The notes beneath the pieces were generated by a model. The model worked only from the letters and a program-made list of their open reading frames with translations. It ran no database searches and was not told the DNA's origin. Below are positions 564-6,026 of a stretch of DNA of 6,286 bases, piece by piece. This stretch comes from Bacteroidota bacterium (lineage in GTDB: Bacteria; Bacteroidota; Rhodothermia; Rhodothermales; Rubricoccaceae), in the NCBI GenBank assembly GCA_022564455.1, contig JADFLK010000137.1, positions 1-6,286 on the forward strand, in the 5' to 3' direction. Made by a program: the position numbers and the translations under genes. How positions within the stretch are numbered: the stretch's first letter is position 1; each line of letters begins with the position of its first letter.

Positions 564-1475
564 CTAACAATGATCGAGTGGAATCCACGAGTGCAGAACG
601 GCCTCGCCTCCTCCCGTCCCCGCCGACCCTGCCGACCCTGCCGACCCAGAATGTGCCGCTTCATACGGTTCTACTTCAGGCTTGCCGTTCGGACTCTCTT
701 CAACCGATTCCGTCTGGTGTCCAGGGAAGAAGTGGCGGCTGAGTTCGTCGGCGGCGTTGGCATAGTCCCTGGCGCCTCGGGATACCACATCGTGGTCAAA
801 AACTGTCCGGCCGTCGTGGGTCGTATCCGCCAGCGAGGTACAGGTCCGTACTACCGAATCCAGGACTCGTCCAGCGTACGTTGTGCGGATGTACTGCGAG
901 TACGCGGCGTGGTCGCGCTTGCGGCCATCAACTTGCGTAAGGAGGAACAGCGGTTCGGCCAAACTCGGGTTCAATTTCTCGCGGACGAGTTGGCAGGTTT
1001 GCCAGGTCTGCCCGGCGCCTACCACCGGCTGGTATTCCGGCGTTACCGGCACCACAGCATAATCGCTGGCCACCAGTGCGTTCATGGTATACACGGAGAG
1101 AGCAGCGGCCGTATCCAGCATCACTATGTCATAATCGTGCCCCTTCGCCAGCGCCTCCTTGATCCAGAACGAGTCCATCGGGCCGGTAAGCTTTTTCTGG
1201 GCTCGCGTCATGTATTGCGTAGCCGGAAGGAGATCGAAACCACTTACCTTGACCACAGGCAACGTGCGGAGATTCGCATCGTGGGTCATCAAAGCCAGCG
1301 AAGACATGGCGGGCTCGGGCTCGCCGACACCCATGATCTGGGTGAGGAAGCACTGCGGGTCGAGATCTACCACGAGGACGCGCTTTCCGCCGAGGCCCAT
1401 CGCGGCCGCGAGATTCATTACGGTAGTCGTCTTACCCGTACCACCTTTGTGGTTACAGATGGTAATGACCGGCAT
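564..1475 (-). CDS. parA: ParA/Soj-family partition ATPase with low-complexity C-terminal tail
   Basis: This is a ParA-type P-loop ATPase of 303 residues, a cytoplasmic family that positions DNA or other cargo on the nucleoid. The deviant Walker A motif KGGTGKTT lies at 10-17 with its signature Lys at 10. Switch I is DLDPQ at 37-41. Walker B is DIVMLD at 116-121, followed by TAAA where many ParAs have PPS. The block SRGARDYANAADEL, near the end of the ATPase domain, is typical of Soj-like proteins. After about residue 250 comes a 53-residue tail with a GSAGSAGSAG run, encoded by a 9-bp tandem repeat, which does not look like part of the ATPase fold. I chose the ATG at 1475 because family members begin a few residues before the Walker motif. 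A TTG at 1508 would add 11 atypical residues. No parB or parS is visible, so it may be an orphan with a cargo other than the chromosome origin. Confidence 0.93.
   Translation of the reverse strand: MPVITICNHKGGTGKTTTVMNLAAAMGLGGKRVLVVDLDPQCFLTQIMGVGEPEPAMSSLALMTHDANLRTLPVVKVSGFDLLPATQYMTRAQKKLTGPMDSFWIKEALAKGHDYDIVMLDTAAALSVYTMNALVASDYAVVPVTPEYQPVVGAGQTWQTCQLVREKLNPSLAEPLFLLTQVDGRKRDHAAYSQYIRTTYAGRVLDSVVRTCTSLADTTHDGRTVFDHDVVSRGARDYANAADELSRHFFPGHQTESVEESPNGKPEVEPYEAAHSGSAGSAGSAGTGGGEAVLHSWIPLDHC
622..648. repeat. 9-bp tandem repeat, three copies, inside the 3' end of parA
   Basis: Three consecutive copies of GCCGACCCT (plus-strand reading, the last ending in A) lie at 622-630, 631-639 and 640-648. 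Read on the minus strand they encode the Gly-Ser-Ala run in the ParA tail. The 9-bp period keeps the reading frame, so copy-number change would lengthen or shorten the tail by three residues at a time. Confidence 0.85.
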
Positions 1476-1607
1476 GCGAAGTGGGGGGACTAAACAGGAG
1501 GTGATCAAGAACGAGAGCTAAGTTAGCAAGGGCTTCCACGTTGGCCAATCGACTTTAGTTGACAATCGCTCCAACCGATACTTCGCGCGACTCTCTGCCT
1601 ACACCCG
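1476..1607. promoter_or_regulatory. Divergent intergenic region between parA and the lnt homologue
   Basis: This 132-bp spacer separates two divergent genes, so promoters for both should lie here. I see no convincing -35/-10 pair. A TTGACA at 1559-1564 faces lnt but has no good -10 at 16-18 bp. Two short palindromes could be operator half-sites: GCTAAGTTAGC at 1517-1527 and TTGGCCAA at 1541-1548. An AGGAGGTGATC at 1496-1506 looks like a perfect ribosome-binding site on the plus strand, but no start codon or gene follows it. The regulatory role is inferred from gene orientation only. Confidence 0.35.
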
Positions 1608-3254
1608 ATGCAGCACGCGCGCATGCGGTCTCCAAATCCTCTTCTCAACCGCTTCTCCCATCCGGCATGGGCGATGAACTGTGGCATACTGCTCGGTCTG
1701 AGTATGCCCCCGTACGGTCTGTACCCGCTCGCATGGATCGCGCTGGTGCCGTTGCTCGTTCGCTGGAGCCTGTTGAAGCATCCCATGACGGTGTTCCGTG
1801 AGGCGTACGTCGCGTTCTTGCTGATGACTATCGTGGCCGGCTTCTGGATGTTGCTGCACTCGTCCATGACGGTCGGCTTGCTCTCCGGGGTCGGCCTGCT
1901 TCTCCTTCCACTCCCCCACGCCATCGCCTTTACGCTGGCTCTTCTGGTCCGGAAGCGATTTGGATTGGTGATGGGTACGGTTGCGCTGGTGGTGAACGTA
2001 CTCTCGGTCGAATACCTGATGGCTCACGGCGCCTTTGCCTTCCCGTGGCTGCTACTGGGGCACACGCAGGCTGACGCGTTGATGTTCAATCAGCACGCAG
2101 ATCTGGGAGGGGTTGGCCTGCTTACTCTGGGCGTACTTGTATCGAATATCCTCGGGATGCTGTTCGTTAGGATGGCCTACAGGCCGGGGCTCGTCCCTGG
2201 TTGGCGCTCGCTTATCGCGCTGGCGATGGTGGCCATGCTATCCGGAATAGCCGTGTATGGTGATGAACAACGTGCCGGCCTCGGCGACGAAGACCAAAGC
2301 ATTCGCATCGGCCTCGTACAGCCGGCGGTAAGAGCCGACATATGGGCGGACGTCACGGATGGCAGCCGGGTTGAATACCTCGCGTCGCTCTCCGACCGGC
2401 TGATTAACAACCGCGGTGGCCTCGTAGTACCGGCATCGGATACCGGTAGAGAACGGCTGGACCTTCTCATCTGGCCGGAGGCCTCGCTCCCCGTATTCGC
2501 AGAGAGCGGCCGGCAGTCACGCCTCTATCGCCGGCTTTCCATCTGGAGCCGCCGGCGCCAGGTAGCGTTGCTTTCCGGCGCCTTCACCAATCACGGGGAA
2601 AGCAGCACCTACTACAACTCTGCCATGCTGTTTGAGGGCTACGAGCAGCCCCAGGAGTACGCCAAGAGCCACATGGTTCCACTCGCCGAGGTTATTCCGT
2701 TCCTCCATCAGAGCCCCATTCTGGACGCGATGACCATCCCGACAACCGCCGATGCGCGCCTCGGGTTTGGCAATCAACCGAATGTGCTTCGCGGGAACCG
2801 TTTCACAGCGGGCACAACCATCGGGTCGGAATCACTGCACGGCGATTACGTTCGCAAGTATGTAGCCAACGGCGCCGACGTGCTCGTGAATCTGGCTCAG
2901 AATGGATGGTGGGGCTATTCCCCCGGCGCGGTCCAGCACCTCAATCTCACCCGCCTCCGCGCCATCGAAACGCGGCGTACCGTCGTGGTCTCCACCGTCA
3001 GCGGAACATCGGGTATCGTGTACCCGGACGGGCGTATCGAGCGCGTTGCAGGTTGGATGGAGGAAGAGATTGTCGAGCGCGAAATCCCACTCCGCACCGG
3101 GCAAACGATATACGTGAAGCACGGCGACTGGCCGGGCCGTTTCAGCCTCATCCCCGCAGCAGGCCTCTTGCTTCTCCTTGGAGTTGCGGCCGTGTTTTAC
3201 CGGCGACCCAACTCGAAATCCTCTTCAAGGAAACGAAAACGGAAACAGGGCTAG
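1608..3254 (+). CDS. lnt: Apolipoprotein N-acyltransferase (Lnt) homologue lacking the catalytic cysteine
   Basis: Lnt is an inner-membrane enzyme that adds the third acyl chain to the N-terminal Cys of lipoproteins. This 548-residue homologue has the usual layout. The N-terminal membrane part has segments near 23-52, 66-87, 89-113, 118-138, 165-188 and 200-217, with the family motif PPYGLYPLAWIALVPLL at 34-50. A periplasmic nitrilase-fold domain spans about 232-495, and a last helix is near 512-531. Catalytic E291 (WPEASLP) and K353 (KSHMVPLAE) are present, as is the equivalent of E. coli E343 (E361). However, the ICYES motif reads IGSES at 405-409: Gly406 replaces the nucleophilic Cys and Ser407 the Tyr. 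The NDxW[FW]G motif reads QNGWWG at 431-436. The reading frame is intact, so this is not a simple pseudogene. It may be inactive, or acting with other chemistry. No Shine-Dalgarno is seen; Met6 (1623) is an alternative start. It is followed by a palindromic repeat and then maf. Confidence 0.9.
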   Translation: MQHARMRSPNPLLNRFSHPAWAMNCGILLGLSMPPYGLYPLAWIALVPLLVRWSLLKHPMTVFREAYVAFLLMTIVAGFWMLLHSSMTVGLLSGVGLLLLPLPHAIAFTLALLVRKRFGLVMGTVALVVNVLSVEYLMAHGAFAFPWLLLGHTQADALMFNQHADLGGVGLLTLGVLVSNILGMLFVRMAYRPGLVPGWRSLIALAMVAMLSGIAVYGDEQRAGLGDEDQSIRIGLVQPAVRADIWADVTDGSRVEYLASLSDRLINNRGGLVVPASDTGRERLDLLIWPEASLPVFAESGRQSRLYRRLSIWSRRRQVALLSGAFTNHGESSTYYNSAMLFEGYEQPQEYAKSHMVPLAEVIPFLHQSPILDAMTIPTTADARLGFGNQPNVLRGNRFTAGTTIGSESLHGDYVRKYVANGADVLVNLAQNGWWGYSPGAVQHLNLTRLRAIETRRTVVVSTVSGTSGIVYPDGRIERVAGWMEEEIVEREIPLRTGQTIYVKHGDWPGRFSLIPAAGLLLLLGVAAVFYRRPNSKSSSRKRKRKQG

Positions 3255-3266
3255 GGCGTGAAGCAG

Positions 3267-3428
3267 GGAGTCTGTCGGACTTAGGGGTTCGTAACGAGGC
3301 GAGCGGAAAATCGAGAGCAGTTTTTCGATCTTTTGAGGCACATAGTTGTGCTACGTATCGAAAAAGATCGGAAAAATGGGCCGATTTGGTGCCACCGCAG
3401 TAGAATCATCTCAAGTCCGACGGACTCC
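3267..3428. repeat. MITE-like 162-bp palindromic element between lnt and maf
   Basis: Terminal inverted repeats of 16 bp lie at 3267-3282 and 3413-3428 and match at 15 of 16 positions. Inside them, nested pairs share nearly the same centre (about 3345-3351): GCGG 3303-3306 with CCGC 3395-3398; AAATCG 3308-3313 with CGATTT 3382-3387; TTTTTCGATCTTTT 3321-3334 with 3362-3376 (one bulged base); and GCACA 3338-3342 with TGTGC 3347-3351 around a TAGT loop. The whole element can therefore fold into one long imperfect hairpin. It contains no plausible ORF. I see no clear target-site duplication. The size, terminal repeats and intergenic position suggest a non-autonomous element, but a transcribed structured RNA or a bidirectional terminator is also possible. 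Confidence 0.75.
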
Positions 3429-3452: not shown

Positions 3453-4076
3453 TTGCTGACTCTCAACGTACCACTGGTTCTCGCGTCTCGCTCACCCAGG
3501 AGGAGCGCGTTACTCCGCCGCCTCGACATACCGTTCATTGCCCATCCAAGTTCGGTTGAAGAGGTCTGGCCGGAGAACGAACCTCCCGGCGCGGCCGTCG
3601 AAAGTATCGCGTTGCAGAAAGCGAATCCCGTCAGCCTGGCCCATCCGGAGGCCCTCACGCTCGGAGCAGACACAGTGGTTGTGTTGGAAGGCGAGGTACT
3701 TGGAAAACCGGGCTCAAAAGAGGAAGCGCGCGCAATGCTCCGCCGACTGAGCGGCGCAACGCACACCGTCTACACTGGGCTGGCGCTTCTCCATCCTTCA
3801 TCAGGGCGTTCCGTTACGGACCACGAAGCCACGCAGGTGACCTTTGCCGAGCTTGACGACGGCGAGATTACCCGGTACGTAGCCACCGGCTCTCCTATGG
3901 ACAAGGCTGGGGCGTATGGCATCCAGGATGACTACGGGGCCTTCTTCGTCTCCCGCATCGACGGCGATTTCTACAACGTGGTCGGCCTGCCACTCCACTG
4001 CCTCTATCGGATGCTGACCGAGCACTTCGCCGATTTGCTTGGCACACCTCCAGTGCATGAGAGCACGGCCTCCTAA
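3453..4076 (+). CDS. maf: Maf-family nucleoside triphosphate pyrophosphatase (dTTP/UTP type, YhdE-like)
   Basis: Maf proteins hydrolyse dTTP, UTP and some modified nucleotides to the monophosphate plus pyrophosphate, cleaning the nucleotide pool; they have also been linked to septum inhibition. The 207-residue length is normal. The N-terminal phosphate-binding motif LASRSPRRSALL is at 10-21. E36 and E37 follow a short spacer, the catalytic Asp is D73 in GADTVVV, and K85 lies in LGKPGS. YTG at 107-109 and SPMDKAGAYGIQ at 147-158 follow, the latter being the signature of the dTTP/UTP subgroup rather than the YceF m7GTP subgroup. FYNVVGLPL at 173-181 closes the domain. DDYGAFFV replaces the commoner GxGAxFV after GIQ, a small change. 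Translation starts at TTG with a strong AGGAGG. The gene sits 24 bp after the palindromic element, which must therefore be in its leader or carry its promoter. Confidence 0.95.
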   Translation: MLTLNVPLVLASRSPRRSALLRRLDIPFIAHPSSVEEVWPENEPPGAAVESIALQKANPVSLAHPEALTLGADTVVVLEGEVLGKPGSKEEARAMLRRLSGATHTVYTGLALLHPSSGRSVTDHEATQVTFAELDDGEITRYVATGSPMDKAGAYGIQDDYGAFFVSRIDGDFYNVVGLPLHCLYRMLTEHFADLLGTPPVHESTAS

Positions 4077-4079
4077 GTG

Positions 4080-4154
4080 CCAAATTCCAAGTACCAAATT
4101 CCAAGCGGTCTCATCAAGCACTCTTTGTGATTTGGAGTTTGGAACTTGGTACTT
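4080..4154. repeat. CCAAATTCCAAG direct repeats and long inverted repeat after maf
   Basis: CCAAATTCCAAG occurs twice in direct orientation, at 4080-4091 and 4094-4105 (period 14). A third copy in inverted, slightly changed form makes a 16-bp stem: 4089-4104 pairs with 4139-4154 at 15 of 16 positions, around a 34-base loop. It begins three bases after the maf stop codon. There is no T-run after the stem, so it is not a classic intrinsic terminator, though it could protect or end the maf transcript. The rest of the 234-bp spacer (4155-4280) shows nothing clear; TTGGAA 4139-4144 and TACAAT 4161-4166 with a 16-base spacer are a weak promoter candidate for the lipoprotein gene. Confidence 0.7.
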
Positions 4155-4310: not shown

Positions 4311-4862
4311 ATGCGTGGTTTTCTGTCCGCCGCCGCACGCGCTGTGCTTCTCGTCGTGCTCGTTTCTCTCGGAGCCTGCGCCAGCGACGAGCCCTCGGAA
4401 TCGGAACCCGTCGCGGCCCTGCCTGCACCTGCAGCGCGAAACGACATCACGACAGCCGTTTCCGAGGCAGGCCTCGATACACTGACACGTCTGCTCCAGG
4501 AAACGGGGCTCGGCGATTCGCTGCGTGGCGAGGGGCCGTATACCCTCTTCGCTCCCACCGATCTCGCCTTTACTGAACTCCCCGGTGGATCGCCAGATGG
4601 GATGTCCCCGGATGACCTTGCCGCAATGTTGGCCTACCACATCATCCCCGGCCGTTTTGAAACGACTTCACTGGCCGGAACCATGGACATCAACACCCTG
4701 CATGGCGGCTCCGTCACCTTTACGGTGGACGCTAGTAACGCTACGTTGCGTGATGGAAGTGGGCATACTGCCATCCTCGTAATACCAGACATGAACGTGG
4801 ACAACGGCGTCATTCACATCATCGACCGCGTATTGATCGCGGGTTCGGTTGAAGGCCGCTAG
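4311..4862 (+). CDS. FAS1 (fasciclin) domain lipoprotein
   Basis: This is an exported lipoprotein of 183 residues with a single FAS1 domain, a fold used in cell adhesion and surface binding. The signal peptide has two arginines near the start (R2, R10), a hydrophobic core at 11-20 and the lipobox LGAC at 20-23, so C23 should be lipidated. A Ser/Glu/Pro/Ala-rich linker (24-42) follows. The FAS1 domain covers about 44-178, with the H1 motif YTLFAPTDLAF at 77-87, YHIIPG at 109-114 and the H2 motif NGVIHIIDRVL at 165-175. One FAS1 repeat is usual for bacterial members. The ligand is unknown. The gene lies 45 bp before the epimerase gene and may share its transcript. As a lipoprotein it is a natural client of the Lnt pathway encoded upstream, though proximity alone does not show a functional link. 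Confidence 0.92.
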   Translation: MRGFLSAAARAVLLVVLVSLGACASDEPSESEPVAALPAPAARNDITTAVSEAGLDTLTRLLQETGLGDSLRGEGPYTLFAPTDLAFTELPGGSPDGMSPDDLAAMLAYHIIPGRFETTSLAGTMDINTLHGGSVTFTVDASNATLRDGSGHTAILVIPDMNVDNGVIHIIDRVLIAGSVEGR

Positions 4863-5870: not shown

Positions 5871-6026
5871 TAGCAGCCTGTTGAAGAAGTCATCCTGCCT
5901 GCGTCGGCGCCTCTCGGTCGATCTCAGCGTTGCGAGATGCTCGCCGAATCGCCTGGGATCTCGCGCCTCGATCTCAACCGAGACTCGCTCGCCTCGGCAA
6001 CAGAGCGCTTCTTCAACTGGCTGCTA
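5871..6026. repeat. MITE-like 156-bp palindromic element between the epimerase gene and scpA
   Basis: Terminal inverted repeats of 19 bp at 5871-5889 and 6008-6026 match at 18 of 19 positions, with tips TAGCAGCC and GGCTGCTA. Nested inside on the same centre (about 5948) are TCTCGGT 5912-5918 with ACCGAGA 5977-5983, and GCGAGAT 5932-5938 with ATCTCGC 5958-5964. A 9-bp direct repeat, TCGATCTCA, lies at 5918-5926 and 5968-5976. No plausible ORF or clear target-site duplication is seen. From memory, TAGCAGCCTGTTGAA-type ends are common on intergenic repeats in several phyla, but I could not check this. It starts 3 bases after one stop codon and ends 16 bases before the scpA start. Confidence 0.78.

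Follow-up and report, generated by a model that had tools for sequence, protein, structure and literature searches.

Lnt homologues without the nucleophilic cysteine occur in part of the Rhodothermales and probably persist as pseudoenzymes

We analyzed a stretch of 6,286 nucleotides from a Bacteroidota bacterium (contig JADFLK010000137.1), hereafter the window. Its only Lnt gene (positions 1608–3254, forward strand) codes for a 548-residue homologue of apolipoprotein N-acyltransferase (Lnt) lacking the nucleophilic cysteine. This state is shared by many homologues, at the same locus, in genomes that mostly code for Lnb, another enzyme proposed for the same step. The reading that we favor, with a probability of roughly 0.6, is that Lnb made the chemistry of Lnt dispensable, and that Lnt without its Cys persists under constraint as a pseudoenzyme whose role is non-catalytic, probably the binding of lipids or lipoproteins.

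The window protein matched the Lnt equivalog profile TIGR00546 with 201.2 bits, above the cut-off of 132.9. It exhibited both domains of the Lnt fold as Pfam matches, namely the LNT_N membrane domain (PF20154; residues 26–182, positions 1683–2153) and the carbon-nitrogen hydrolase, or nitrilase, domain (PF00795; residues 279–498, positions 2442–3101), both on the forward strand like all residues described below. Its identity to E. coli Lnt was about 20% in a structural alignment. A first-pass annotation, made from the letters alone, had proposed that Gly-Ser (GGG TCG, 2823–2828) stands without gaps in place of the catalytic Cys-Tyr. As a matter of fact, the HMMER alignment with E. coli Lnt (entry 5vrh, a C387S mutant) showed an ungapped block from residue 405 on, in which G406 (GGG, 2823–2825) takes the position of the nucleophile C387, and S407 (TCG, 2826–2828), a position that varies within the Cys-less clade, that of Y388. 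The same annotation had described a Glu, a Lys and a second Glu as kept. Here too the alignments agreed, pairing E291 (2478–2480) with the general base E267, K353 (2664–2666) with the oxyanion residue K335 and E361 (2688–2690) with the fourth catalytic residue E343. In addition, E408 (GAA, 2829–2831) aligned with E389 and R451 (2958–2960) with R432.

The sole cysteine of the window protein is C25, outside the nitrilase domain, and a scan of the nitrilase region (residues 230–515) found no other. This ruled out an alternative Cys nucleophile in this protein, including another Cys placed at the elbow, a case that the first pass had envisaged. The AlphaFold2 model (pLDDT 92.5, pTM 0.92) predicted that residue 406 opens a short helix, 406–410, in the manner of E. 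coli C387, which begins helix alpha3′, a helix capped by R432 (PMC5500890, in the portion available). Sequencing error, already deemed unlikely in the first pass, was ruled out: the motif IGSES also occurs in the 93%-identical gene (locus L001) of an independent metagenome-assembled genome (MAG), which makes an error very unlikely, and the same residues recur in independent contigs across the clade.

How widespread is this state? Our first homologue search gave 307 matches, and in alignment A1, made of the best 120 of these plus the window protein (121 rows), column 406 held Gly in 69 rows, Cys in 46, Ala in 5 and Ser in 1. Two further searches, each likewise giving its best 120 matches, brought the proteins read to 302, with 156 Gly, 136 Cys, 5 Ala, 4 Asp and 1 Ser, that is, 166 Cys-less proteins; since the searches were partly seeded with Cys-less queries and each gives its best 120 matches, these proportions are no census. 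The loss of the nucleophile noted in the first pass was thus real, but what had been treated as a single oddity is a clade-wide state. It includes cultured kinds, that is, Rubricoccus marinus (P0292) and Rubrivirga sp. (P0258, P0263, P0268 and P0273); in Rhodothermus marinus and R. profundi, the Cys is present.

The other catalytic positions behaved differently in the two types. Read at residues 291, 353, 361, 406 and 408, the Cys rows were EKECE in 134 cases out of 136; of the two exceptions, P0297 is truncated and misaligned. Among Cys-less rows of the 302 set, the commonest patterns were QQDGE (74), EKEGE (18), which is that of the window, EQPGE (13) and RQEGE (11). Hence, the catalytic Glu and Lys were often lost once the Cys was gone; the set is complete in the window protein and incomplete in many sister sequences. 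At the 75 outgroup loci, mostly from other phyla, E and C were present in all 74 that could be read (L037 has a split frame and is unreadable at 406), and K and E361 in all 74 with a letter there. Outside the nucleophile column, E408 was Glu in 121/121 rows of A1, in 166/166 Cys-less rows of the 302 set and in 87/88 Cys-less rows of a further set, larger than A1, the sole exception being an Ala from genome G078. In these 88 rows R451 was Arg throughout, and W246 (2343–2345), which we take to be the position of E. coli W237, was Trp in 84 of the 87 rows with a letter there. Finally, 62 of the 88 rows had no Cys within 230–515, 25 had one at column 314 and one had it at column 231. Column 314 falls in helix 300–316 of the window model, and the window protein itself has no Cys there.

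To count the losses, we used a tree of 135 rows built by a quick method with the catalytic columns removed, for which long branches and uneven letter composition were warned. It comprised 61 loci of the order, 64 of the 121 protein rows (thinned at 72% identity and 480 residues) and 10 of the 75 outgroup loci, five fragments (L139, L142, L143, L152 and L155) being left out. On this tree, the Cys-less state required a minimum of three changes, and the Cys-less rows formed three groups, one of 36 rows with the window among them (clade 1), one of 7 rows with Ala, Gly or Ser that is sister to a Cys group (clade 2), and one of 9 rows, among them those of G025 and G076–G078. A single origin of all Cys-less rows was rejected (AU p 7.6e-6, on 80 of the 135 rows), but a union of clades 1 and 2 was not (AU p 0.36, likewise on 80 rows), and we therefore limit the claim to what is supported, that the nucleophilic Cys was lost at least twice.

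Gene order gave a consistent picture. In the window, lnt lies between a ParA-family ATPase gene (564–1508, reverse strand) and a Maf nucleotide pyrophosphatase gene (3453–4076, forward strand), both identified by profile and Pfam matches, and locus comparison showed these to be frequent upstream and downstream neighbors of lnt in the order, allowing for some loci being only about 4 kb long or ending at a contig edge. Both flanked lnt at 34 of 53 Cys-type loci (for example L097, L099, L107, L109 and L133) and, the window aside, at 11 of 13 Cys-less loci; at L004 and L152, Maf alone was seen. Among 20 loci chosen from the 51 genomes in which no Lnt was detected (for example L195–L214), 15 had ParA immediately upstream of Maf and nothing resembling Lnt in between, and a profile search of all 20 found no lnt remnant. 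The remaining five comprised three with an SNF gene and no ParA (G027, G028 and G111), one with none of the query genes (G034) and one at a contig end (G110). Since the same parA-lnt-maf arrangement occurs with a Cys-type, a Cys-less or a missing lnt, the Cys-less genes are lnt orthologues altered in place. Judged by its sequence, the window protein is an Lnt orthologue by descent, without the standing of a working Lnt.

The window holds several other features. Downstream of maf, a gene at 4311–4862 (forward strand) codes for a fasciclin-domain protein (Pfam match) with a signal peptide that ends, by eye, in a lipobox-like LGAC; it is likely a lipoprotein of the same organism and a candidate substrate. 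Between lnt and maf, a gap that is short in L001, lies a 162-bp stretch (3267–3428) with 16-nt terminal inverted repeats, which looks like a small mobile element; copies were seen elsewhere in L001 (972–805, 74% identical) and in L033, from a Candidatus Manganitrophaceae MAG (71%). A 156-bp stretch just before scpA (5871–6026) has 19-nt inverted ends (95% complementary), and no copy of it was found among the compared loci. After maf, a 66-bp hairpin-forming repeat (4089–4154), perhaps REP-like, was 99% identical in L001; in L091, which belongs to the same genome as L001, 31 bases of it were matched.

We then considered which enzymes of lipoprotein maturation are coded in the order. We searched 114 genomes of the Rhodothermales, the order of G001, a MAG with an Lnt that shares 93% identity with the window protein. 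Lnt was of Cys type in 50, Cys-less in 13 and not detected in 51; three of the 13 Cys-less proteins (in G076–G078) fell below the Lnt cut-off and the one in G051 is a contig-edge fragment. The first pass had asked for a second Lnt copy, and none was found in any of the 13 Cys-less genomes, which led us to reject the idea of a Cys-less paralogue beside a canonical Lnt. The other TIGR00546 matches in these 13 genomes were sub-cut-off frames of about 270–600 residues elsewhere, which we read as nitrilase-like. Two Lnt copies were present in G033 and G089, both of Cys type. Divergent Lnt-like proteins with the E-K-E-C residues, possibly of separate origin, were seen in five of the 50 Cys-type genomes (L147, L148, L150, L153 and L154 in G063, G064, G065, G067 and G068, respectively), elsewhere in the genome and away from maf, four of the five scoring under the curated cut-off. 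Both ParA and Maf were absent next to these divergent forms and next to the second copies.

Lgt was found in 109 of the 114 genomes and LspA in 107; in the 13 Cys-less genomes, Lgt was found in 12 and LspA in 11, with at least one of both in each. The Lnb_N domain, PF13387, whose Pfam name identifies it with Lnb, was found in 106 of the 114 genomes, and among 14 control genomes in Bacteroides alone. Both domains of Lnb, Lnb_N and 5TMH_Lnb, were in one protein in all 10 proteins scanned out of 18 aligned, and H64, C163, H329 and H345 were invariant in all 18, the His and Cys being presumably catalytic. The first pass had also suggested a search for another N-acyltransferase, and Lnb was indeed coded in 12 of the 13 Cys-less genomes, the MAG G003 being the one in which none was found. 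It was equally common with a Cys-type Lnt (47/50) or with no detected Lnt (47/51, the other four genomes being possibly incomplete); as its occurrence does not vary with the loss of the Cys, we rejected Lnb as a marker of the Cys-less state. By extension from G001, the organism of the window would have Lnb as well. Lnb is described as a lipoprotein N-acyltransferase of the Bacteroidota distinct from Lnt (PNAS 2024, as cited in the accessible parts of PMC12345273, PMC13103446 and PMC11694511).

According to the available text of PMC5500890, E. coli Lnt acts through a thioester on C387, Ala at any of C387, E267, K335, E343, Y388 or E389 abolishes rescue, and E389 holds a helix through Y333. Because the acyl-thioester cannot form without the Cys, the window protein should not act as an Lnt-type N-acyltransferase, which is a strong inference from the E. 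coli mutants. A plausible course of events is as follows. Lipoproteins would still be made, Lgt and LspA genes being present in relatives, and their N-acylation would most likely be performed by Lnb, whose gene is order-wide. Lnb being already there, the catalytic Cys of Lnt could go, at least twice, and the lnt orthologue of this lineage would have turned in place into a pseudoenzyme; in other lineages, the entire gene would have gone from between parA and maf. Purifying selection would keep the Cys-less protein for a non-catalytic task, the likeliest being that its conserved membrane cavity binds phospholipid or diacylated apolipoprotein, and the bound lipoproteins may be held, handed over or sorted. 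The first pass had offered a choice between a non-catalytic lipoprotein-binding protein and a different enzyme for the acylation step. The data favor both at once, lipoprotein binding being plausible. A more specific version, which we find tempting but doubtful, is that the former enzyme now serves the pathway that took its place, as a chaperone or a subunit: it would present the diacylated apolipoprotein, or else the phospholipid donor, to Lnb or to a Lol sorting step. The 47 Lnt-less genomes with Lnb live without a detected Lnt, which speaks against an obligatory presenter role, and with no Lnt detected in 51 of 114 genomes, the order as a whole does not depend on the Cys-less protein.

Could the Cys-less gene instead be functionless and decaying toward deletion, Lnb having made it redundant? 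Two observations would fit with this: several genomes of the order have no lnt at the parA-maf locus, and part of the Cys-less clade has lost E, K and the equivalent of N314. Substitution patterns pointed the other way. Restricted to unsaturated dS, dN/dS was 0.13–0.37 for Cys-less pairs and 0.11–0.32 for Cys pairs. Relative to Maf, dN of Lnt was no higher in the Cys-less type than in the Cys type (median ratio 1.02 for 6 Cys-less pairs vs. 1.67 for 10 Cys pairs; Mann-Whitney p 0.023, only indicative since pairs share branches). The pair L005–L141, whose Maf frame is overlong, was left out; its ratio of 0.68 would favor maintenance. Relative to ParA the picture was mixed, with 0.73–3.03 for Cys-less pairs, so that some of these are fast, and 0.90–7.46 for Cys pairs. 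Moreover, 165 of the 166 Cys-less homologues are 490–590 residues long, with identities to the window protein down to about 34% among the homologues listed (best 120 of 307), and W246, E408, R451, W80 and E135 are nearly invariant in Cys-less rows. These sequence data indicate that the Cys-less gene is maintained and not decaying, and we regard decay as improbable.

The same constraint relative to Maf, which is not relaxed, could also be expected if the protein were still an acyltransferase, using Ser407, Ser409 or a water held by Glu291 and Lys353, or transferring directly without an acyl-enzyme; Glu291, Lys353 and Glu361 are mostly kept in the subclade of the window. However, Ser at 407 is found in only 14 of the 26 rows that make up the Glu-keeping part of clade 1, Ser409 is common in Cys-type proteins too (94 of 121 rows, both kinds together), and in the 43 rows of the Glu-losing part Lys is replaced by Gln in 40 with Gly406 kept. 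Even a Ser in place of the nucleophile does not work in E. coli: C387S has no activity, its oxygen ester being too stable (PMC5500888, available portion). Retained catalysis thus appears to us quite improbable, and the least probable of the readings considered. A different possibility concerns the step itself rather than the protein, namely that N-acylation is done by an enzyme other than Lnb, or that lipoproteins stay diacylated and these bacteria can do without N-acylation, like the lnt-tolerant species that have LolF. Some Proteobacteria do tolerate the loss of lnt (PMC11784454, in its accessible part), and the four Lnt-less, possibly incomplete genomes without a detected Lnb would suit this reading. 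The near order-wide occurrence of Lnb_N and the co-occurrence of both Lnb domains in every protein scanned argue for Lnb, and we hold this alternative to be unlikely.

Compared with known systems, the window protein shares the domains of E. coli Lnt (TIGR00546; PF20154 plus PF00795) but has no nucleophilic Cys, and its relatives carry an Lnb gene. With the plan of Lnt present and its defining catalytic feature failing, the Cys-less proteins qualify as a natural pseudoenzyme clade of Lnt. Lnb of Bacteroides (Lnb_N, PF13387; 5TMH_Lnb, PF25221) is proposed for the same pathway step in the same genomes; it differs in its domains and would be a partner or a replacement. A further parallel is with the laboratory mutants C387A and C387S of E. 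coli (5n6l and 8b0m, the latter being a C387S-PE complex), which lack the nucleophile, keep the fold and still admit lipid. In the C387A crystal, the inactive protein still has lipids filing into the active-site portal (PMC5500888, in the text available). These mutants are engineered and inactive, whereas the loss seen here is natural and clade-shared, in a gene under selection. In the literature covered, namely titles and openings of abstracts, with most subscription papers outside its scope, we met neither a natural Cys-less Lnt nor a Rhodothermales Lnt.

One practical consequence concerns annotation: proteins without the nucleophile are named "apolipoprotein N-acyltransferase," as is P0292 of Rubricoccus marinus, and such names call for caution. 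Lnt, an essential enzyme in E. coli, is under discussion as a target for drugs. The Rhodothermales offer a natural series at one locus, in which lnt is of Cys type, Cys-less or missing, alongside a gene for the same step that is unrelated to it, and they include cultured environmental members such as Rubricoccus marinus. With this series, the questions of when the chemistry of Lnt can be dispensed with, and of what other functions the Lnt fold has, become directly testable.
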